64,000 nt of DNA, taken from Periweissella beninensis. Its GTDB lineage: Bacteria; Bacillota; Bacilli; Lactobacillales; Lactobacillaceae. The stretch is from NCBI RefSeq assembly GCF_016908275.1, contig NZ_JAFBDN010000005.1, forward strand, positions 1-64,000, in the 5' to 3' direction. Both the position numbers and the translations under genes were made by a program. The notes below the pieces were generated by a model. It worked only from the letters and a program-made list of their open reading frames with translations, made no database searches and was not told the origin of the DNA. Of this stretch, positions 1,685-45,272 are shown piece by piece (position 1 is the stretch's first letter; every line of letters starts with the position of its first letter).

Positions 1685-2692
1685 CTAGGCTTCTTCACTA
1701 ACTTTTACGATCGCTTTTGATACCGTACCAAGCTTACCAGTTAGATAATCTTCAACAGTGTTAAAGTCTAATTCATGAGAGATAAGTGATAGGACATCAA
1801 GTTTATCAGCTGCTAATAATGCTAGTGAGTCTTCAAAAGCATTTGGATTAATGAATGAACCTTGCACAGTTAATTGTTTTTGGAAAACTTCATAGGTATT
1901 CATAGAGAAATGTTGATTTGGTTTACCAACACCAAACATAAGTACTTGGGCACCCTTAACTGTCGCTTCAATTGCTTGTTCTTGGGTTTCAGGTAAACCA
2001 ACGGCTTCGATGACAACATCGTAATCTGCAGGAATTTTTTCTTCCGGCATCTTAAAGGTCCGGGTTGCCCCAAAGTTATCTTTATTATTTTGGAGTTTTT
2101 CAGCACTGCGTCCAGCAAGGTCAACTTGGTGAACACCATAGGCTTGAAGTAATTGGACAAAAATTTGCCCCATAAAGCCATCACCAATAACAAGGGCTTT
2201 TTGGTAAGGAGTTAATTTTAATAATTTAACACCGTGTACGGCACAAGATATTGGTTCAGTAACGGCTGCAGCCTTTAATGAAACGTTATCTGGCACATGG
2301 TAAACCACTTCAGTAGGAGCAGTGAAATAGTCTTCAAAACCACCATCACGAGTAACCCCAACAGCTGAAAGGTGATCACAAAGTTCGGGACGACCAGTCC
2401 GACAGTACCGGCATTTGCCACAGTAGATGTTAGGATCGACAGTTACACGATCACCAACTTTAAAATCAGTAACAGCCGCACCGACTTTAGCGATAACACC
2501 TGAATTTTCGTGACCTAAAACAATTGGTGGTACAGCATCAGCTGAACCTGGAAGACCAGCATATAAAGCATGATCAGTTCCACAAATCCCAGCATAGGCA
2601 GTGTGAATTAAAACTTCATCATTAGCTAAAGATGGTTCTTTTACGTCTTGGACATCTAATTTTTTAGTACCATTTAAAACAAGTGCTTCCAT
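1685..2692 (-). CDS. Zinc-dependent medium-chain dehydrogenase (sorbitol/threonine dehydrogenase-like)
   Basis: A 335-residue MDR-family NAD(P)-dependent alcohol/polyol dehydrogenase. Catalytic zinc ligands are C37 and H61-E62 (GHENSG). The structural zinc loop has four cysteines (C91, C94, C97, C105). The Rossmann segment reads ALVIGDGFMGQIFVQ, with G-D-G-F-M-G in place of the common GxGxxG. The set of residues is closest to sorbitol, idonate or galactitol-phosphate dehydrogenases; the true substrate is unknown. It is the first gene of the minus-strand group and the start ATG is preceded by a strong GGAGAT-type ribosome site. Confidence 0.85.
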   Translation of the reverse strand: MEALVLNGTKKLDVQDVKEPSLANDEVLIHTAYAGICGTDHALYAGLPGSADAVPPIVLGHENSGVIAKVGAAVTDFKVGDRVTVDPNIYCGKCRYCRTGRPELCDHLSAVGVTRDGGFEDYFTAPTEVVYHVPDNVSLKAAAVTEPISCAVHGVKLLKLTPYQKALVIGDGFMGQIFVQLLQAYGVHQVDLAGRSAEKLQNNKDNFGATRTFKMPEEKIPADYDVVIEAVGLPETQEQAIEATVKGAQVLMFGVGKPNQHFSMNTYEVFQKQLTVQGSFINPNAFEDSLALLAADKLDVLSLISHELDFNTVEDYLTGKLGTVSKAIVKVSEEA

Positions 2693-2731
2693 TACTCTAT
2701 CTCCTCTAAAAACAAAAAGTATATATTTATT

Positions 2732-2758
2732 TGAACAACTACATTGTAGAACTGTTCA
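2732..2758. promoter_or_regulatory. Inverted repeat upstream of the dehydrogenase operon
   Basis: TGAACA and TGTTCA face each other 15 bases apart and enclose CTACATTGTAG, itself almost palindromic. It lies 40-66 bp before the dehydrogenase start, where an operator would be. No adjacent regulator gene was found. The rest of 2693-3054 is AT-rich with no coding frame. Confidence 0.4.
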
Positions 2759-3054
2759 CAAATTAATTCAATATGTAAATACTAATATTACGATAGCTTA
2801 ATTAACGATTATCATTTGTAATTAGCTAAAAGCCTATTTAATCAGGTTTTTACTTTATTATTTTGAAATATAAATTATAAAAAAGATTTTTTTGATATAT
2901 ATCATTAGTTATAACTTTAACTAATCATTGTTAAAGCATTACTTATTAAAGCTATTTTGTTAACAAGCCTGTGGTCTTTAAATACCATAGGCAGTATATT
3001 ATGACAGATATGCTAAAATTAGTTAAAAGAAATTAGAAAAAGAGGGGCTTGACA

Positions 3055-3969
3055 ATGATAAAAAAATGGCAACAGGTGCGCGATAATAAATGGTTAAAAG
3101 TAAGCCAGGAGTATTTTCTACGGGCAGATATTAGTAATGCCAGCGCTACAATTGCTTATTATTCACTATTAGCGCTTTTTCCAGCAATTATTGCATTAGG
3201 TGCAATTTTGCCTTTTTTAGGAATTAACATTAATCACTCGTTAGAATTACTAAAAACGGCAGTGCCTAATAATATTTACCAAGTATTAACACCAATCATT
3301 CGTTCTGTCTTAGCACGGCAGAGTGTCGGGTTGTTTTCAGTGGGGATCATAATTACACTGTGGTCATTGAGTAAGGTGGTTGCTGCGTTTAGACAACGTT
3401 TGGATATTATTTATAATATTAAAAAACCTAAGTCACCCGTCTTAGTTCGTATTATATCAATGGCGTGGTTGGTCGCAACAGTTGGATTATTAGGGTTAGT
3501 GATTATTATTATGTCATTGAGTCGTTTGATTCTTGAACAGCTCACAACCTTCAAAGAATTAAGGGGTTGGGTAACCTTAATACAAAATGCAAAATGGCCG
3601 ATTGTCTGTGTGGTTTTAGTCATTGGTGTAATGATTTTAAACTACGCGCTACCTGCCAAGCGCCCAAAGTTTAGATGGGCACTATTAGGAAGTAGCCTTG
3701 AAGTGGGTGGCTTTTTAGGATTGTCACAGTTATTTGGGCTTTATGTTAATATCGCTGCTGCCAAATACAGTTTTTATCAAGCAATTGGTACTTTTATTAT
3801 CTTGTTAATTTGGCTAAATTTAGTGGCATCGATTGCTCTAATTGGGGCAACTTTTATTGCAATTCTAAATCATGTAGAAACTGAGCAACACACAGCTAGC
3901 CAAAACGATGATGAGCAGCCTAACCAAATTAATGAAAATTGGGGTAAAACAAGATTTTTAAGAAAGTAG
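3055..3969 (+). CDS. YihY/BrkB family inner-membrane protein
   Basis: About 304 residues with six hydrophobic spans, typical of the YihY/BrkB family. The family hallmarks are visible: the early segment ASATIAYYSLLALFPAII, the middle ALPAKRPKFRWALLGSSL and the late LYVNIAAAKYSFYQAIGTFI. Older databases call these ribonuclease BN, which is considered wrong; the role is unknown and may be envelope-related. I chose ATG 3055 rather than TTG 3049 because AGAGGGG at 3041-3047 has proper spacing only to the ATG. It heads a likely operon with helD (18 bp gap) and a HAD phosphatase. Confidence 0.88.
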   Translation: MIKKWQQVRDNKWLKVSQEYFLRADISNASATIAYYSLLALFPAIIALGAILPFLGININHSLELLKTAVPNNIYQVLTPIIRSVLARQSVGLFSVGIIITLWSLSKVVAAFRQRLDIIYNIKKPKSPVLVRIISMAWLVATVGLLGLVIIIMSLSRLILEQLTTFKELRGWVTLIQNAKWPIVCVVLVIGVMILNYALPAKRPKFRWALLGSSLEVGGFLGLSQLFGLYVNIAAAKYSFYQAIGTFIILLIWLNLVASIALIGATFIAILNHVETEQHTASQNDDEQPNQINENWGKTRFLRK

Positions 3970-3987
3970 AAAGGGACTCGTTATAGC

Positions 3988-6264
3988 ATGAATGATGAAC
4001 AAAAAAAGGAGCAACAGCGTGTTGATTTAGTTATTACTGAAATAAAAGCACAACAAATTTTAGTAGATGACCAATTAAATAAAGCACACCAAGAAACGCG
4101 GGCAGTTGAAGGTAACTATACCGATAATGCTTCAATTAACACCTTTGAAATTGATGATGCGAGTGAGACGAATGCTGAGGTGCAACAGCAACGGCAATTA
4201 GTGGCGCGCGTTGTCGAGACTGAAAATATTTTAAAGAAACAAGGTGCTACGTTAAAAGCGCTAGCGCAAGCACCGTATTTTGGGAAAGTAGATATTACTG
4301 AAGCAGCCCAACCAATGAGCCTCTATATTGGCTTAGCATCGTTTCAAGACAAACAGCAGCATTTTTTAGTGTATGATTGGCGAGCCCCGATTGCGGCAAT
4401 TTACTATAATGGTACCTTAGGGCAAGTCACATATACCACACCGAGTGGAGCTAGGACAGTTCAATTAACCAATAAACGGCAATTTACGATTGAAAATGGG
4501 CAGATTACCAATATGTTTGATACCGACGAAACAGTTGGTGATGAAATGTTACAATATGCCCTAGGGCAACAAAGTGATGCATATATGCAAAACATTGTCG
4601 CCACCATTCAAAAAGAGCAAAATGATATTATTCGCGATACTAAACATGACGTCTTATTAGTACAGGGGGTTGCTGGTTCGGGCAAAACTTCAGCAATTTT
4701 ACAGCGGATTGCGTATTTGTTGTATCATGCACGGCGTGAATTAACGGCTGATCAAATTGTTTTATTCTCGCCTAATCGTTTATTTAGTCATTATATTGCT
4801 GATGTGTTACCAAGTTTGGGTGAGCGTAATATGCGTCAAATTACGCTAGCCGAATTTTTAGATGCTCGGTTAGAGGGCTTAAATGTTCAGAGTTTATTTA
4901 ACGAATATGAGATTAATCAAATTAGGCATGTGCCTACTGCGCTTAATCAAGCGATGGAAAGTGTTAAATTAGTTACTAATTTAGATGCATATGTTGCCCA
5001 GTTAGCACCAACTGATTTAAAATTTGCGGATATTTATCATGTTGATCAGGTTATATTTAGTGCATATCATAGTCGGATTATTTTTAATCGATTATCACCT
5101 AAATTATCAATTGGTGAACGTCTATTACAAACTAAAAATACGCTAATAAAAGAATTGAAACGCAAGTTAGCTCACTTAGCTGAGTCAGCGATTGTTGCAA
5201 AAGAAGTTAATCAATTAACCGTTGATGAATATCAGGCATTATTAGGATCACAATCGGCTTTTCATGACTTGGCCCGGCAGCAAGCATATGCGCAAAAACA
5301 ATATGTATATAAAAAATATCAACCTATTTATGATGCAATTTATAATAATTATTTCATTGATATTTTTAAGCAATATGCTGCTTTTTTACAATATTATGGC
5401 ACACAAATTGGGCAAAACGCCATGTTAGCAGCTAAGGAAGAGACCTTTTTAACAGAGCTTGAGTATCACCGCATTGATTTACAAGATGCAGTACCATTAT
5501 TGTTACTTCGTGATATGTTAACTAAAAATGGCCAAAATCGTGAAATTAAGCATTTATTTATTGATGAAATGCAGGATTATTCATTAGTCCAGCTAGCATA
5601 TTTAAAACATGCGTTTCCTAATGCCAAATTAACGATCTTAGGGGATATGCAACAGGCCTTATTTAGAACCAGTACTAATTTACATTTTTTAGCGGCTAAT
5701 TTAAAGACCTTATTTAAGACAAATAATTTAGCAACAATTGTTTTAAACAAAAGTTATCGATCAACACAAGAAATTACTAACTTTGGCAAGGCTTTATTAG
5801 AGAAGGGTGCTGCCATAACAGCCTTTACCCGGCATGGTGAACTGCCTGTATTGTTAAGAACAGGTTCGCGTGGCTGCTTGCCAGTGTTACTTGAACTTTT
5901 GCAGCAACCAACGCAGCAAAAGACCACAGCAATTATTACGAAAACGCAACAACAAGCGGCAATGGTCAGTCACCAACTAACTAACGCTAAGCTTGCTAAT
6001 AATTTAATGACCGCCACGGATCGGGAACTAAAAGCGGATCTCGTCGTGTTACCAATTTACTTAGCAAAGGGTTTGGAGTTTGATCGTGTGATTGCATATG
6101 ATGTATCAGCTGAAAATTATGCCAAACCGACTGATGCAGCGATTATATATACTATTGCATCGCGGGCAATGCATGAATTAGTATTAATAGCAGATGGACC
6201 AGTTAATCAGCAATTAGCCCAAATTGATCCATCTTTGTATCGTAAATTAATTGTTAATAAATAG
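3988..6264 (+). CDS. helD: HelD-type RNA polymerase recycling motor (UvrD-like helicase fold), copy 1
   Basis: A 758-residue superfamily 1 ATPase. An N-terminal coiled-coil-like arm (residues 1-100, rich in Gln/Glu) would reach into the RNA polymerase secondary channel. Walker A is VQGVAGSGKTS near residue 224-234, followed by QRIAYLLYHAR. The Walker B-like box FIDEMQDYSLVQL is near residue 523, and GDMQQALFR, LNKSYRST and the C-terminal YLAKGLEFDRVI motifs follow. HelD in Bacillota strips stalled RNA polymerase from nucleic acid with ATP. The segment between the ATPase halves is the clamp-opening insertion. A second homologue of similar length lies at 34889-37183. UvrD/PcrA is excluded by the long N-terminal arm. 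Confidence 0.88.
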   Translation: MNDEQKKEQQRVDLVITEIKAQQILVDDQLNKAHQETRAVEGNYTDNASINTFEIDDASETNAEVQQQRQLVARVVETENILKKQGATLKALAQAPYFGKVDITEAAQPMSLYIGLASFQDKQQHFLVYDWRAPIAAIYYNGTLGQVTYTTPSGARTVQLTNKRQFTIENGQITNMFDTDETVGDEMLQYALGQQSDAYMQNIVATIQKEQNDIIRDTKHDVLLVQGVAGSGKTSAILQRIAYLLYHARRELTADQIVLFSPNRLFSHYIADVLPSLGERNMRQITLAEFLDARLEGLNVQSLFNEYEINQIRHVPTALNQAMESVKLVTNLDAYVAQLAPTDLKFADIYHVDQVIFSAYHSRIIFNRLSPKLSIGERLLQTKNTLIKELKRKLAHLAESAIVAKEVNQLTVDEYQALLGSQSAFHDLARQQAYAQKQYVYKKYQPIYDAIYNNYFIDIFKQYAAFLQYYGTQIGQNAMLAAKEETFLTELEYHRIDLQDAVPLLLLRDMLTKNGQNREIKHLFIDEMQDYSLVQLAYLKHAFPNAKLTILGDMQQALFRTSTNLHFLAANLKTLFKTNNLATIVLNKSYRSTQEITNFGKALLEKGAAITAFTRHGELPVLLRTGSRGCLPVLLELLQQPTQQKTTAIITKTQQQAAMVSHQLTNAKLANNLMTATDRELKADLVVLPIYLAKGLEFDRVIAYDVSAENYAKPTDAAIIYTIASRAMHELVLIADGPVNQQLAQIDPSLYRKLIVNK

Positions 6265-7783: not shown

Positions 7784-9817
7784 ATGACAACAAACGATAA
7801 ATTTTATATTACAACGCCGATTTATTACCCCTCTGGTAAATTACAACTAGGTAACTCATATACAACGGTATTGGCTGATGCCGCCGCTCGTTATAATCGT
7901 TTACTTGGTAAAGAAACTTATTTTTTAACTGGTACTGATGAGCATGGCTTAAAAATTGAGCAAAAAGCAGCAGAATTAGGCAAGACACCTCAAGGTTATG
8001 TTGATGAAATGGCCCAACAGTTTAAAGATTTGTGGCAATTGATGGATATCTCATATGATCAATTTATCCGCACCACTGATGCTATGCATGAAAAGGCTGT
8101 CCAACAAATTTTTGAACAATTATTAGCCCAAGGCGACATCTATAAAGGAGCCTATGAAGGTTGGTATTCCGTTTCAGATGAAGAATACTTTACCGAATCA
8201 CAGTTAGCGGAAGTTTATCGAGATGCTGATGGTAATGTGATTGGTGGGAAAGCACCATCGGGCCATGAAGTAGAATTAGTTAAAGAAGAGTCATATTTCT
8301 TCAAAATGAGTAAATATGCGGATTGGTTATTGGACTACTATCAAAAGCATCCCGACTTCATTCAACCAGATGCACGGATGAACGAAATGATTAATAACTT
8401 TATCAAACCAGGCCTTGAAGATTTAGCGGTTACGCGTACTTCGTTTAACTGGGGTGTTAAAGTGCCATCTGATCCTAAACATGTTGTGTATGTTTGGATT
8501 GATGCGTTGGCTAACTATATTACGGCCTTGGGGTACGGTAGTGCTGATCAAACGTTATTTGAAAAGTTTTGGCCAGCTAATGTCCATCTTGTTGGTAAGG
8601 AAATTGTTCGCTTCCACACCATTTATTGGCCAATTGTATTACATGCTTTAGGGCTACCACTTCCCGATCAAATTGTAGGGCATGGTTGGTTAGTGATGAA
8701 AGACGGTAAAATGTCGAAGTCTAAGGGAAATGTGATCTATCCAGATGTCTTAGTTGAGCGCTATGGCTTAGATGCTGTCCGTTATTATTTATTAAAAGCA
8801 ATGCCATTTGGTAATGACGGGGTGTTCACACCAGAAGACTTCATTGGTAAGTTAAATTATGACCTAGCCAATGATTTGGGTAACTTGTTGAATCGGACCG
8901 TCGCCATGATTAATAAATACCAAGATGGTCACATTCCAGCTTTAGCCAGTGGGACCACTGAGTATGATGCTGACTTAGCTCAAGTGGCCACGGCAACGAT
9001 TGCTGAGTTTAATGCACAGATGGCACAAATTAGGACTGCTGATGCGCTTAGCACAGTTTGGAAATTAATTGCCCGGGCAAATAAGTACATTGATGAAACA
9101 GAACCTTGGGTATTAGCTAAGCAAGGAGCAAGTGCTGAGCTAGCCGATGTGATGGCGCATTTAGCTGCTAGTTTACGGATCGTAGCTATCCTATTACAAC
9201 CATTTATGACGCATGCACCAAAACAAATCTTTGCACAACTGGGCTTTGATCCAGCCGCAATGCAAATTGCCGGGTTAGCCTTTGCGGACTTACCTGCTAA
9301 CGCGCAAGTTGTTAAAAAGGGTGAGCCAATTTTCCCTCGACGTGATGCCGATGCCGAAATTGCCTTTGTTGCGGGCTTACTTACTAAATCAGATAAAAAG
9401 AAGGGACGTGCAGTGATGGAAGATGCCAAACAAGCAGAGACAACACCGTTTGATCCAAGTAAAACTGAATTAGTATCAACCAAGGATGCCCAAATTGAGT
9501 ATGCCGATTTTGACAAGGTTGAGCTAAAAGTGGCTGAAATTATTGAAGTCCAAGAAGTACCTAAATCAGATAAACTATTACAGTTCCGTTTGAATGCTGG
9601 TGACAAGGATGATCGACAAATTCTTTCAGGAATTAAGAAGTGGTATCCAGACTTTGAAAACCTCGTAGGTAAAAAAGTTGTGATTGTTGCTAACATGAAG
9701 TCACGTAAAATGATGGGTCGGTTATCACAAGGAATGATCTTATCAGCTGAACATGGGGATGCAGTGCAACTTACGATTTTACCAGATACAATGGTTCCAG
9801 GTAGTGAAATCGCCTAA
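7784..9817 (+). CDS. metG: Methionyl-tRNA synthetase
   Basis: A 677-residue class I synthetase charging tRNA-Met. The N-terminal Rossmann domain begins [20 protein letters not shown], where the HIGH signature is replaced by QLGN; this variant is usual in lactobacilli. The second signature [10 protein letters not shown] is intact. The anticodon-binding helical domain spans about residues 370-530, and a C-terminal OB-fold tRNA-binding domain ([17 protein letters not shown] to the end) supports dimerisation. The CP region lacks zinc-binding cysteines. A GGAAAGGAAG ribosome site precedes the ATG. It heads the metG-tatD-rnmV-rsmA order that is common near oriC in Bacillota, with an SGNH hydrolase inserted. 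Confidence 0.97.
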
Positions 9818-10523: not shown

Positions 10524-11330
10524 ATGCCAATATATGATCCAACCAAAATGCCAGCAGATAGTTTTGATACGCACACTCATTTGAATGATGATTCATTATT
10601 TGAGGAATTAGCCGCGTATGTTGGGCGGGCCCATGAATTTCGGGTAATGGAAATGAATGTCGTGGGATATGACGGAATTGGTAACCAACGGGCGCTTGAA
10701 ATTGCCCATCAATACGCTGGCATTAATGCGATTTTAGGTTTTCAACCGGAAGATGCAAAATTATTCAGTGCCGATGAAGCAGCGCTTTTAAAAAGCCAGA
10801 TTAGTGACCCGGCAGTGGTTGGCTTGGGCGAAATGGGGCTAGACTATTATTGGGACACTTCAACTAAAAAGCAACAATGGGATGCTTTTGAACAACAACT
10901 AGCTTGGGCAAAAGAGTTTAATAAGCCGGTAACAATTCATGCTAGAGATGCCATGGATGATGTCTACAGTATTCTAAAAAATGCTGATGTTAGTACGATT
11001 GGTGGCGTTATGCATAGTTTTACTGGGAATGCTAGCGAAGCTGAAAAATTTCTTGATTTGGGGATGCATGTCTCATTTAGTGGTATTGTAACCTTTAAAA
11101 ATGCGAAAGAAATTCAAGCAGCTGCACAAGTAGTACCCATGGAACGGTTATTAGTCGAAACGGATGCCCCATATTTGGCCCCCACTCCATTACGTGGTAA
11201 ACAAAACGAACCAGCGTTTGTTAAGTATGTTGTTGATGGCTTAGCTGCGGTACTAGGTCTTGATCCCCAAGAGGTTGCGCAACAAACAACTGCAAATGCG
11301 CGACAATTATGGAGTATTCAGCATGACTAG
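10524..11330 (+). CDS. tatD: TatD family metal-dependent deoxyribonuclease
   Basis: A 268-residue TIM-barrel hydrolase. The metal-binding features are DTHTHLND (H17, H19), GEMGLDYY (bridging Glu), IHARDA, HSFTG and VETDAPYLAP near the C-terminus. The family acts as a 3'-5' exonuclease on DNA and takes part in repair. The gene overlaps rnmV by 8 bp, the conserved tatD-rnmV-rsmA coupling of Bacillota. Confidence 0.94.
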   Translation: MPIYDPTKMPADSFDTHTHLNDDSLFEELAAYVGRAHEFRVMEMNVVGYDGIGNQRALEIAHQYAGINAILGFQPEDAKLFSADEAALLKSQISDPAVVGLGEMGLDYYWDTSTKKQQWDAFEQQLAWAKEFNKPVTIHARDAMDDVYSILKNADVSTIGGVMHSFTGNASEAEKFLDLGMHVSFSGIVTFKNAKEIQAAAQVVPMERLLVETDAPYLAPTPLRGKQNEPAFVKYVVDGLAAVLGLDPQEVAQQTTANARQLWSIQHD

Positions 11331-11880
11331 GATCCAAGAAGTGATTGTTGTTGAAGGTAAAGATGATACTTTGCAACTTAAAAAAGCAGTGGATGCTGAT
11401 ACAATTGAGACAAATGGTTCTGCTGTTTCACGTGAAACATTAGCACAAATTAAAATGATTGCCCAAAAGCGAGGGATAATTATTTTTACTGACCCGGATT
11501 TTAATGGTGAACGCATTCGCAAGATTGTGAGTGCTGCTGTTCCGAATGCTAAACACGCCTTTATTAAGCGACAAGATGGCGTGCCAAGGACGGCAGGTGG
11601 CAGCCTTGGCGTTGAACATGCGAGTGTTACTACGATTCGTGAAGCCTTAGCGAACCTTTATCAAGAAAGTAGTGCAGCACCACAGGTGATTACGCAACAT
11701 GATTTGTTAGAAGCTCAATTGATTGGGCATCAAGCAGCCCGGATGCGCCGTGAACAATTGGGCCAAAAGTTACAGATTGGCTATAGTAATGCCAAACAAT
11801 TATTAAAACGATTACAAATGTTTGAAATTCAAAAAAGTGAATTTTTAGCAGCGATTAGCGAAATTGATCGAGGAGAATAA
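11323..11880 (+). CDS. rnmV: Ribonuclease M5 (5S rRNA maturase)
   Basis: About 185 residues. An N-terminal Toprim domain carries VVEGKDDTLQL and FTDPDFNGERIRK, the acidic metal-binding residues of RNase M5. The enzyme trims 5S rRNA precursor, and a 5S gene lies at the window start. The start is ATG 11323, 5 codons before VIVVEGKDD; longer frames upstream lie within tatD. The coding sequence contains a perfect parS palindrome at 11424-11439. The gene almost abuts rsmA (1 bp). Confidence 0.94.
   Translation: MTRIQEVIVVEGKDDTLQLKKAVDADTIETNGSAVSRETLAQIKMIAQKRGIIIFTDPDFNGERIRKIVSAAVPNAKHAFIKRQDGVPRTAGGSLGVEHASVTTIREALANLYQESSAAPQVITQHDLLEAQLIGHQAARMRREQLGQKLQIGYSNAKQLLKRLQMFEIQKSEFLAAISEIDRGE
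11424..11439. promoter_or_regulatory. parS: parS centromere-like site
   Basis: TGTTTCACGTGAAACA is a perfect 16-bp palindrome equal to the canonical Bacillota parS bound by ParB/Spo0J. It lies inside rnmV, where it encodes AVSRE plus flanking bases, and about 33 kb from parA-parB in this window. parS sites inside coding genes near oriC are normal in Bacillota. Confidence 0.92.
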
Positions 11881-41589: not shown

Positions 41590-41778
41590 CGTAAAAAAAA
41601 TATCTAGTAAAGAAAACTTTTAATTACAAATTAATCATGTTATAATTACTCGTGTAGTTTGGTTCGGTAAAAATTAGGTCTTGTTTCATCAGTTTTGAGA
41701 AATATCTCCAGTTGCACCAATCAGTTACATAAACAATATGCTACTTTATTAGTAGTCAATAATAAGGAGATTCATCTA

Positions 41779-41979
41779 ATGGAACAAGGTACAGTTAAAT
41801 GGTTTAACGCAGACAAAGGTTTTGGCTTCATCACTCGCGAAAATGGTGACGATGTATTCGTACACTTCTCAGCTATCCAAGGTGACGGTTTCAAGACTCT
41901 TGAAGAAGGTCAAGCCGTAACTTTCGACGTTGAAAGTTCAGATCGTGGCCCACAAGCTGCTAACGTTAACAAAGCTTAA
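41779..41979 (+). CDS. cspA: Cold shock protein
   Basis: A 66-residue single OB-fold RNA chaperone. RNP1-like KGFGFI and RNP2-like VFVHF motifs are intact in [18 protein letters not shown] and [17 protein letters not shown] at 41764-41769 selects ATG 41779; the longer upstream frame is the leader. TATAAT at 41641-41646 suggests a leader of about 125 nt, usual for csp mRNAs, which fold differently in the cold. Codon use is of highly expressed type. Confidence 0.96.
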
Positions 41980-42006
41980 TTTTAAATTACTTATTTAAAA
42001 TTTGGA

Positions 42007-42038
42007 AAAAGACTAGGATCATAGATCCTGGTCTTTTT
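42007..42038 (+). terminator. Terminator after the cold shock gene
   Basis: AAAGACTAGGATC pairs with GATCCTGGTCTTT (one G-U), followed by T6. Confidence 0.88.
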
Positions 42039-42134
42039 TGTGCGGTCAAAACTTTTGTGGTGCGCTATTGTAATGACCAAAGGTGGTAATTATGTGTGAC
42101 CAGTTGAACTGAAATCTGTTCCAAAATAAGTTTA

Positions 42135-42166: not shown

Positions 42167-42282
42167 AGAAAATGATAAAATATTTCCCAATATTCTTGAA
42201 CAAATGTTTGAGCAAACAACGTTTTTAAGGTATTATTAATTTATGTGAAGTTACCAAGATATTCACAATTTGGAGGGATCTG

Positions 42283-43008
42283 ATGAACGAAGAACAATTT
42301 GTGGCAGCATTAGCAGCACAAGACATTACGTTGTCAACAAAGCAATTACAGCAATTTGCTGATTATTATGATTTGTTAATTGAAACTAATGAAAAATTCA
42401 ATTTAACAGCAATTACTGAAAAATCAGATGTATATTTAAAGCACTTTTATGATTCAATTAGTGCCGCTTTTTATTTTGAAGATTTTAAAACAAAGGAATT
42501 ACAAATTTTAGATGTCGGTGCTGGTGCCGGCTTTCCATCAATTCCATTAAAAATCGTGTTTCCGCAGTTACAAGTGACCATCGTTGACTCCTTGCAAAAA
42601 AGAATTAATTTTCTAGGAGCGTTAGCTAACAAATTAGGACTAACGAATGTCGCGTTTGTTCATGATCGCGCGGAATCATATGGGGCTAAAAAAGCCCCCC
42701 ACCGGGCAAGTTATGATGTTGTCTTGGCACGTGCGGTCGCTAGAATGACTATTTTGAGTGAATTGACATTACCGTTATTGAAACTAAATGGTAAGTTAGT
42801 GGCAATGAAAGGTTCTAGTGCTCAAGTTGAGCTAGCAAATGCCCAAACGGCATTGAAAATTTTAGGCGGACAAGTGATTGCCACCCACGCGTTTAAGTTG
42901 CCAAATGGTGATCCACGTGAAATTGATATTGTGGAAAAGATTAAGGTAACGCCTGCTAAGTATCCCCGTAAACCAGGGACACCTAATAAAGAACCATTAG
43001 GAGAATAG
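42283..43008 (+). CDS. rsmG: 16S rRNA (guanine527-N7)-methyltransferase
   Basis: A 241-residue SAM-dependent methyltransferase modifying G527 of 16S rRNA. The SAM-binding segment reads [31 protein letters not shown] follows, and VLARAVARM carries the active-site region. GGAGGGATCTG precedes the ATG. It opens the rsmG-noc-parA-parB string that is characteristic of the oriC neighbourhood in Bacillota. Confidence 0.96.
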
Positions 43009-43039
43009 TTAAGATGATGCTAAAGGGGGTTGATTAGCT

Positions 43040-43591
43040 GTGACGGATGAGATACACAAAAAAGTGCAGCTATCGCCAATACAAGTTGATAGATTGGTGC
43101 AAGAGTTACGTACCAAAACAACACAGCATCAGCTATCAATTTTGGCAGAAGCGAAGTGTTACGCTGAAATCATGCGGTTGAGTGATTATACCCAAGTCGC
43201 ATTAGCACATGAATTAGGTAAATCACAAGCAACAATTGCAAATAAAGTACGGTTGTTAAAATTAGGGCAACCCGCAAAAACTGCACTCGAAGAGGGTTTG
43301 ATTACGGAGCGACATGCGCGCGCCTTATTAAAATTAGATAAGCGCACACAAGCAAATGTGGTCAAAAAAATAATTCAACAAAATTTAACTGTTAAGGTTA
43401 CGGAAATGTTGGTTAAAAAATTATGCTATAACCAATTAGATTTGCCAGCTCAACAGGCAGTTGTCCAGGATTATTTAACAGTAGGAATTGAAAAATTCAA
43501 GAAACAGGGGATTTATCTTGATTATCATGCTAGTAAAAATCAAATCACATTAAAATTTATATCGAGAGAAGAAGCAGAAAGGAAAACGTAA
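43040..43591 (+). CDS. noc: Noc-like ParB family protein lacking the N-terminal CTP-binding domain
   Basis: A 183-residue protein in the Noc position (31 bp after rsmG, abutting parA). It begins almost directly with the helical DNA-binding part: YAEIMRLSDYTQVALAHELGKSQATIANKVRLLKL (the helix-turn-helix), then LITERHARALLKL and a C-terminal dimerisation-like region. The usual ParB/Noc N-terminal domain with the GERRxRA CTP-binding motif, about 100 residues, is missing, and the short gap before it cannot hold it. GTG 43040 with AAGGGGG upstream is the start. It should bind DNA but probably cannot make the CTP-driven spreading clamp. Confidence 0.85.
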   Translation: MTDEIHKKVQLSPIQVDRLVQELRTKTTQHQLSILAEAKCYAEIMRLSDYTQVALAHELGKSQATIANKVRLLKLGQPAKTALEEGLITERHARALLKLDKRTQANVVKKIIQQNLTVKVTEMLVKKLCYNQLDLPAQQAVVQDYLTVGIEKFKKQGIYLDYHASKNQITLKFISREEAERKT

Positions 43592-44362
43592 ATGGCACAT
43601 GTTATTGCAGTTGCAAATCAGAAAGGTGGGGTTGGTAAAACAACTACCAGTGTAAATCTTGGAGCAGCCCTAGCAACCGCGGGAAAACGCGTTTTATTAG
43701 TTGATATCGATGCCCAAGGTAATGCTACTAGTGGGACAGGGATTCAAAAATCAGCAATTGAAAAAGATATTTATGATGTCTTAGTAAACGAGGTTCCTTT
43801 AGCGGAAACAATCTTAGCGTCAACCCATGAAGGTATGGATGTTGTACCCGCAACAATTCAATTATCAGGAGCTGAAATTGAATTAGCCCCACAAATGGCA
43901 CGTGAAATGCGCCTAAAAGATGCTTTAGATACAGTGCGTGATCAATATGACTATATTATTGTTGATAATCCGCCTTCGTTGGGAGTTATCACGATTAACG
44001 CCTTTACGGCAGCGGATTCAATTTTAATTCCAGTGCAAAGTGAATATTATGCGTTAGAAGGATTAGGGCAGTTATTAAATACTGTTAAGCTAGTTCAAAG
44101 ACATTTCAATACAGATTTAAAAATTGAAGGTGTTTTATTAACGATGTTTGATGCGCGAACTAACTTAGGACAAGAAGTAAATTCAGAAGTTCGGACATAT
44201 TTTGGGGATCAAGTATATAAAACAATTATTCCCCGAAATGTCCGATTAAGTGAAGCACCTGCCCACGGATTAGCAATTACTGATTATGATCCAAGTTCAC
44301 GTGGAGCAGAAGTGTATACTGCTTTGGCAAAGGAGGTCTTAGCGGCCCATGGCGACTACTAG
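43592..44362 (+). CDS. parA: Chromosome partitioning ATPase ParA/Soj
   Basis: A 256-residue deviant Walker A ATPase: ANQKGGVGKTTTSVNLG (K11 to T18), DIDAQGNATSG, IIVDNPPSLG and PVQSEYYALEGLGQLL. It drives ParB-parS complexes and in Bacillus also controls DnaA. It follows noc with no gap and overlaps parB by 14 bp. Confidence 0.96.
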   Translation: MAHVIAVANQKGGVGKTTTSVNLGAALATAGKRVLLVDIDAQGNATSGTGIQKSAIEKDIYDVLVNEVPLAETILASTHEGMDVVPATIQLSGAEIELAPQMAREMRLKDALDTVRDQYDYIIVDNPPSLGVITINAFTAADSILIPVQSEYYALEGLGQLLNTVKLVQRHFNTDLKIEGVLLTMFDARTNLGQEVNSEVRTYFGDQVYKTIIPRNVRLSEAPAHGLAITDYDPSSRGAEVYTALAKEVLAAHGDY

Positions 44363-45272
44363 AAAGAAAAGTATTTTAGGTGAAGGTAAAGGATTAGGCG
44401 CATTATTGAGCAGTAATAATATTGACATTGATATTGAAGATTTAAATACTGAAAAAATCCACAAGATTAATATTACTGATATTGTTGCTAATCCATTTCA
44501 ACCAAGGATTACATTTGATCCAACCGCATTAGAAGAACTTGCAGAATCGATTAAAAATGAAGGGGTTTTTCAACCGATTATTGTCCGGCAACCAAACAGA
44601 ACTGAAAAAAAGTATGAAATTATTGCTGGTGAGAGACGGTTTAGAGCGTCTAAGTTAGCCGAACAAAAAAATATTCCGGCGATTGTTCGCGATCTATCAG
44701 ATAATCAGATGATGGAATTGGCAGTTGTTGAAAATTTACAACGTGAAAATTTATCCCCTTTAGAAGAGGCACAAGCATATCAAACGTTAATGGAACGTTT
44801 GAATTTAACCCAAGCACAAGTCGCTAAACGGCTCGGTAAGTCACGCCCATTTATTGCTAATTACTTACGGCTTTTAACCTTACCAGCTACGGTTAAGGAT
44901 ATGGTCCAAAAAAATGAATTATCAATGGGGCAAGCACGGACACTACTTGGCTTAAATGACAAGCAAAAAATTACACCATTAGCTAAAAAAGTGCTTGATC
45001 AAGGGCTCACAGTTCGCCAATTAGAAGCATTGGTTAATGAATATAATGGTATGACTGAACCATCAGCTAAAGTAGCAACTAAAGATGTGCAAAAACCAAA
45101 TAAAAAGCCCAGTCTGTTTATTAAAGCAGCTGAAAATCAATTAGAAGAGAAGTTTGGCACAAAAGTAGCCTTAAAGGGGAATTCCAAAGGACAAGGTAAG
45201 ATTGAAATCAATTATTTATCAGATAATGACTTGAATCGAATTTTGGAAATGTTAAACATTACTTTAGATTAG
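44349..45272 (+). CDS. parB: Chromosome partitioning protein ParB/Spo0J
   Basis: A 307-residue CTP-dependent DNA clamp. Complete domain order: N-terminal INITDIVANPFQPRITFD and the GERRFRASKLAEQ motif, VVENLQRENLSPLEEAQAY, helix-turn-helix TQAQVAKRLGKSRPFIANYLRLL, then a C-terminal dimer domain (about 245-307). The basic linker and tail are present. A cognate parS is at 11424-11439. AAAGGAGG lies 14 bp before ATG 44349, within the end of parA. Confidence 0.96.
   Translation: MATTRKKSILGEGKGLGALLSSNNIDIDIEDLNTEKIHKINITDIVANPFQPRITFDPTALEELAESIKNEGVFQPIIVRQPNRTEKKYEIIAGERRFRASKLAEQKNIPAIVRDLSDNQMMELAVVENLQRENLSPLEEAQAYQTLMERLNLTQAQVAKRLGKSRPFIANYLRLLTLPATVKDMVQKNELSMGQARTLLGLNDKQKITPLAKKVLDQGLTVRQLEALVNEYNGMTEPSAKVATKDVQKPNKKPSLFIKAAENQLEEKFGTKVALKGNSKGQGKIEINYLSDNDLNRILEMLNITLD

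Follow-up and report, generated by a model that had tools for sequence, protein, structure and literature searches.

The interval between rsmG and parA in Periweissella beninensis raises the question of what the DNA-binding half of a Noc protein does alone. Both ParB and the nucleoid occlusion protein Noc, a guard of cell division, serve as models of CTP-dependent switching, and the current view holds that Noc requires clamping as well as membrane binding. In the window analyzed here (the whole stretch of 64,000 nucleotides), the gene lying in the noc position, between rsmG and parA, had been described in an initial annotation as encoding a Noc-like protein devoid of its CTP-binding domain. 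The operon was assigned as follows.

42283–43008 (+): rsmG, the first gene of the operon (TIGR00138, 163.6 bits, above its cut-off).
43022–43029 (+): AAAGGGGG, the likely ribosome-binding site of the headless noc, as predicted from the sequence.
43040–43591 (+): headless noc, with a GTG start and 183 amino acids; orthologues in four further genomes (G001–G004).
43592–44362 (+): parA (ParA-family NCBIfam matches; position and length conserved).
44349–45272 (+): parB, complete, with ParB_N, HTH_ParB and ParB_C.

The headless noc starts 31 bp 3' of rsmG and abuts the parA start at 43592. Further 5', a cspA thermoregulator RNA (RF01766, 85.2 bits; 41629–42039, + strand) was also detected, located 5' of and overlapping the cold-shock gene that precedes rsmG.

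No match to ParB_N was obtained with Pfam in the headless noc product, and the N-terminal CTPase domain with its GERRxRA and ENLQR motifs was not present, while HTH_ParB (PF17762) was found at residues 31–128 with 97.7 bits. With the curated family nucleoid_noc of NCBIfam (TIGR04285), the protein scored 110.9 bits, i.e., below the cut-off of 315, and the alignment covered only positions 95–198 of the 255 of the profile. The missing domain was not encoded elsewhere, as the sole ParB_N match in the whole genome was parB; similarly, tblastn searches with the N-terminal domains of three full-length Nocs against the five Periweissella loci matched only parB. The absence of the CTP-binding domain was therefore borne out in all five species, as was the proposal that the loss is specific to noc, with parB being complete in each of them. 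The amphipathic membrane-targeting segment, whose absence had also been predicted, was missing from the N-termini of all five truncated proteins, which start with MTDEIHKK, MVKAVRQE or MNNDLQ-like sequences, in contrast to the mostly MA(F/L)SxF-type starts of full-length Noc. The description of a protein beginning at the helix-turn-helix region held only in part: the ParB/Noc DNA-binding domain does span from residue 31, but about 30 divergent residues come first. The gene is thus best called a headless Noc orthologue, which fails several of the tests that define the Noc family.

The same organization was observed throughout the genus. Our sample comprised five genomes (G000–G004), P. fabalis, P. 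fabaria and P. ghanensis among them. Since five species have been described in this genus of lactic acid bacteria (PMC10745875), the other two genomes, G000 and G001, probably belong to P. beninensis and P. cryptocerci. A truncated noc of 180–187 amino acids lay between rsmG and parA in every one of these genomes, and its frame has remained open in all of them after deep divergence. A loss of the 5' part of the gene by sequencing or assembly was practically discounted, given that the same form recurs in all five independently assembled genomes, including a chromosome in a single contig, and that the gap to rsmG measures just 6–32 bp in every species. Neither a lost 5' region nor a diverged N-terminal domain was thus found at any of the five loci, and an assembly artefact, a shifted frame and a hidden diverged domain were excluded by the five-genome conservation together with the tblastn results.

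When 401 genomes of the family were scanned, no further truncated Noc was found outside Periweissella among the strongest matches, which were the ones listed; those outside the genus all lay in open frames of approximately 276–419 codons. Related loci inspected in other organisms were full-length in 34 of 34 cases, with the GERR motif in 33. A tree built from RsmG, ParA, ParB and YchF recovered Periweissella as the sister group (support of 100) of seven genera that form their own clade (support of 96) and carry parA straight after rsmG, without noc; genera beyond this clade carry either a full-length Noc or none. The domain loss would have taken place in the Periweissella lineage or earlier. 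One full-length Noc (L147 of G059, 2414–3346), with GEHR instead of GERR, GNFQTE instead of ENLQRE and altered DNA-reading residues, may be another Noc on the way to giving up its switch, here through mutation instead of deletion, judging from its sequence. At G105:C44:23481-23990, a noc match of the full-length type is interrupted by an in-frame TGA and is perhaps a recent pseudogene.

The truncated gene is under purifying selection and is not decaying, as indicated by the low dN/dS values of 0.038–0.067 (dS of 0.6–0.7) obtained for pairs among P. fabaria, P. fabalis and P. ghanensis. In the same comparison, values of 0.010–0.018 were observed for parA and of 0.023–0.047 for parB. Over longer distances, the truncated Noc changes faster than ParB, with identities of 42–49% vs. 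68–73% (48% and 73%, respectively, between G000 and G001).

With regard to the remaining protein, the following parts were distinguished.

43076–43123 (+): predicted N-terminal helix (residues 13–28), which substitutes for the ENLQRE helix seen in full Noc (AlphaFold2 model, alignment).
43130–43432 (+): ParB/Noc DNA-binding domain (residues 31–131), with Q63, K69, K74 and R91 (PF17762, Foldseek, alignment).
43442–43561 (+): C-terminal domain (residues 135–174), a helix and two strands, with a probable role in dimerization (AlphaFold2 model).

The AlphaFold2 model had a mean pLDDT of 88.7, and the closest folds retrieved by Foldseek were the Noc structures 7nfu, 7ol9 and 6y93. The DNA-binding region was compared with the Noc sequences of the PDB, being 44–52% identical to the solved structures; the B. 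subtilis Noc row of the separate Noc alignment carries no conclusion. Between the deep Periweissella lineages, conservation was highest in the helix-turn-helix core (57–66% identity) and lowest in the N-terminus, i.e., the first 30 residues or so (11–26%).

The preference of Noc for its binding site (NBS) is set by Q173, K179, K184 and R201 (Caulobacter numbering), and this QKKR set switches ParB to NBS (PMC7383237). The equivalent residues of the headless Noc are Q63, K69, K74 and R91, which were invariant in the five Periweissella species; the arginine at 173 and glycine at 201 typical of ParB were not present, with Q and R in their place, while the ParB proteins of the same genomes carry parS-type specificity residues. 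A conserved DNA-contacting lysine is replaced by cysteine (GCSQ) in the three P. fabalis-like species. Recognition of DNA does not need the missing part, given that the isolated DNA-binding domain of Noc was co-crystallized with NBS without the CTPase domain (6Y93). In the AlphaFold2 models, the C-terminal domain shows the same alpha-beta-beta layout as that of the full Noc of genome G043, but the linker that precedes it comprises about 3 residues (132–134) vs. about 20 low-confidence residues in the G043 protein. Profile comparisons of the C-terminal domain of the headless Noc with those of full Noc and of ParB yielded no significant match, so that dimerization through this domain is suggested instead by its position and predicted topology.

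The NBS pattern ATTTCCCGGGAAAT was searched with up to one mismatch. The five Periweissella genomes contained 0, 0, 1, 0 and 0 such sites, compared with 4–26 in seven Noc-bearing genomes (those with two ParB/Noc matches) and 0–1 in ten Noc-less genomes. A parS positive control gave 4–12 sites per Periweissella genome by the same kind of search. At two mismatches, the P. beninensis genome had 3 sites vs. 13 for a reversed-pattern control, while a modest excess over this control was observed in G001 (17 vs. 5) and G002 (10 vs. 4). NBS-like sites with two to three mismatches, such as ATTGCCCGGGCAAA at 9068 inside metG, were set aside; 13 of the 14 inspected lay within predicted reading frames and looked like chance, one of these 13 forming part of a terminator-like hairpin stem. 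With the NBS array missing, Noc also has no chromosomal substrate on which to act in nucleoid occlusion, and the loss of clamp-forming nucleoid occlusion by Noc in Periweissella is the best explanation of this pattern. No match to MinD above the cut-off was found in the Periweissella genomes. The window itself also holds a perfect parS, TGTTTCACGTGAAACA, at 11424–11439, inside an open reading frame (11260–11880) that probably encodes RNase M5 (rnmV).

One NBS-like element was nevertheless conserved, at the promoter of the operon itself.

42181–42188 (+): NBS half-site TATTTCCC, a perfect match to the consensus, common to the five promoters; core of ATATTTCCC (42180–42188).
42208–42213 (+): predicted -35 box (TTGAGC) of the rsmG-noc-parAB promoter, conserved in the five species.
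42231–42236 (+): predicted -10 box (TATTAT), in a TTGAGC-17-TATTAT spacing.

The consensus NBS is TATTTCCC-GGGAAATA, and the A and the C within TATTTCCC distinguish NBS from parS (PMC7383237). Relative to the start of rsmG, ATATTTCCC was located at -103 to -106 in all five Periweissella species, and the five regions upstream of rsmG share no word longer than ATATTTCCC and the -10 region GGTATTATT; the distance from TATTTCCC to the -35 box was 18–19 bp in each of them. Given that this 8-mer is expected by chance in 200 nucleotides with a frequency of approximately 0.3–1% per species, its conserved occurrence at a fixed position carries the argument, and not its presence in any one species. The second half-site was degenerate or absent. 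The arrangement of half-site, -35 and -10 occurred once per genome at the rsmG operon in the five species, with one extra match in G004, and a wider regulon sharing this promoter arrangement was sought in the Periweissella genomes and not found. In 16 of 17 Noc-less genomes, the half-site ATTTCCC was absent from the 600 bp 5' of rsmG; the remaining one has it at -385. In G009, whose Noc is full-length (L160), a perfect full NBS was found 112 bp 5' of rsmG. The rsmG leader of this latter genome also carries the inverted repeat CGTGGAACAAGATGTTCCACG. In P. fabaria, P. fabalis and P. ghanensis (L169–L171), two direct parS half-sites (GTTTCAC) were observed at -143 and -131, just 5' of the NBS half-site, and part of this module is duplicated in P. 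ghanensis.

Taken together, our preferred reading, which we hold by a narrow balance, is that the headless noc encodes a Noc orthologue without CTPase domain and membrane helix which has been selected as a CTP-independent DNA-binding protein that tunes its own operon. The published Noc cycle comprises clamp closure, spreading and membrane recruitment (PMC8429893); with neither CTPase domain nor membrane helix nor NBS array, this cycle cannot operate, and the known mechanism of Noc gives the headless Noc no means to clamp, spread or carry DNA to the membrane. Instead, a dimer of headless Noc, with two DNA-binding domains of the NBS type, would bind the half-site 5' of its own promoter, and the bound dimer would adjust how rsmG-noc-parA-parB are transcribed, in the manner of any conventional operator-binding regulator. 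The half-site, at about 18–19 bp 5' of the -35 box, is placed such that it could serve either activation or, together with other sites, repression. As far as can be told from sequence, the protein is thus probably a local regulator, i.e., a small autoregulator of rsmG-noc-parAB, although five related species do not amount to five independent observations, and a factor other than the headless Noc could use the element. Among the three fates put forward in the initial annotation, a simple DNA-binding regulator is the one best supported, on the grounds of the specificity residues, purifying selection and the promoter half-site. That a CTP-switched, genome-wide membrane-tethering protein became a single-target autoregulator by losing a domain and its linker, while its array of sites eroded, is a tentative scenario, with the odds leaning somewhat against it.

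The contrary view, in which the headless noc is a decaying relic with no important function left, an intermediate towards full loss, is unlikely. The sister position of Periweissella to seven genera without noc between rsmG and parA, the NBS array already lost and the faster divergence of Noc than of ParB at long distance (48% vs. 73%, G000–G001) all fit a relic, and the idea of a first step to loss retains some footing in those sister genera; however, a dead relic is at odds with a frame open in five species, a dN/dS of 0.04–0.07 between close species, invariant DNA-reading residues and a conserved promoter element. We also regard as improbable, to a nearly equal degree, that the protein, as a DNA-binding regulator or nucleoid protein, acts mainly at other sites that do not fit the consensus, with the promoter half-site being incidental. 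The absence of the canonical array would agree with such targets, and the loss of the linker, together with the lysine-to-cysteine change at the DNA contact, could have shifted the site preference, but all four NBS-specificity residues are retained, and the only conserved NBS-like element found is that at its own operon.

Two further readings assign the protein a role close to partition. ParT of the Streptomyces plasmid SCP2 consists of DNA-binding and C-terminal domains joined by a flexible linker, with no CTPase domain (PMC12260392), and this shared lack makes a ParT-like, CTP-independent clamp conceivable, which would load at a site, diffuse along DNA and close through the N-terminal helix. 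In spite of the same domain loss (PMC12260392) and the predicted helix at residues 13–28 ahead of the DNA-binding domain, such a clamp appears decidedly improbable, as ParT has a flexible linker, whereas that of the headless Noc measures some 3 residues, compared with the 20 or so low-confidence residues of the G043 Noc, and no array of loading sites exists. Even less credence is given to a role of the headless Noc in partnering or antagonizing ParB, whether by forming mixed dimers or by competing at parS. The gene adjoins parAB, the C-terminal domains share a distant common origin within the family, and three of the species have two parS half-sites close to the element; nevertheless, the four specificity residues are of the Noc and not the ParB type, and the C-terminal domain profiles of both proteins do not match. 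No positive evidence was obtained for this role, which had also been suggested at the outset.

Set against known systems, the headless Noc shares with Noc of Bacillus, Geobacillus and Lactobacillaceae (TIGR04285) the rsmG-parA locus, the DNA-binding domain, the QKKR residues and the predicted C-terminal alpha-beta-beta layout, and differs from it in the absence of CTPase domain, membrane helix and NBS array and in having almost no linker. In domain layout, the closest precedent is ParT, likewise built of DNA-binding and C-terminal domains without CTPase; ParT, however, is a plasmid partition protein with its own parA and a flexible linker, whereas the headless Noc, an orthologue of Noc encoded on the chromosome next to an intact parAB, lacks such a linker. 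Chromosomal ParB/Spo0J has the same DNA-binding fold and belongs to the same operon, but it reads parS through R/G-type residues and keeps its CTPase domain, while the headless Noc carries QKKR. KorB of plasmid RK2, a ParB-family transcription repressor, was a distant fold match (1r71, E of 0.02 in Foldseek), with an identity of about 19%, and retains a CTP-dependent clamp (PMC11790492). In the literature searched, we found no paper pairing Periweissella with ParB and none describing a truncated Noc.

A natural Noc without its switch, selected over the age of the genus and with its chromosomal sites lost, would separate DNA recognition cleanly from the CTP clamp, and thereby makes testable what the DNA-binding half does alone. 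The same loci may also be read as a dismantling of nucleoid occlusion, from a full Noc with an NBS array, through a headless Noc with one half-site, to the sister genera with no noc. Other features of the locus were also noted: parB follows rsmG or noc with no parA between them in L163 (G008), L160 (G009) and L148 (G021), and in L142 (G011; 3835–4697) parB is seemingly split into open reading frames of 221 and 76 amino acids, by a frameshift or an assembly error.
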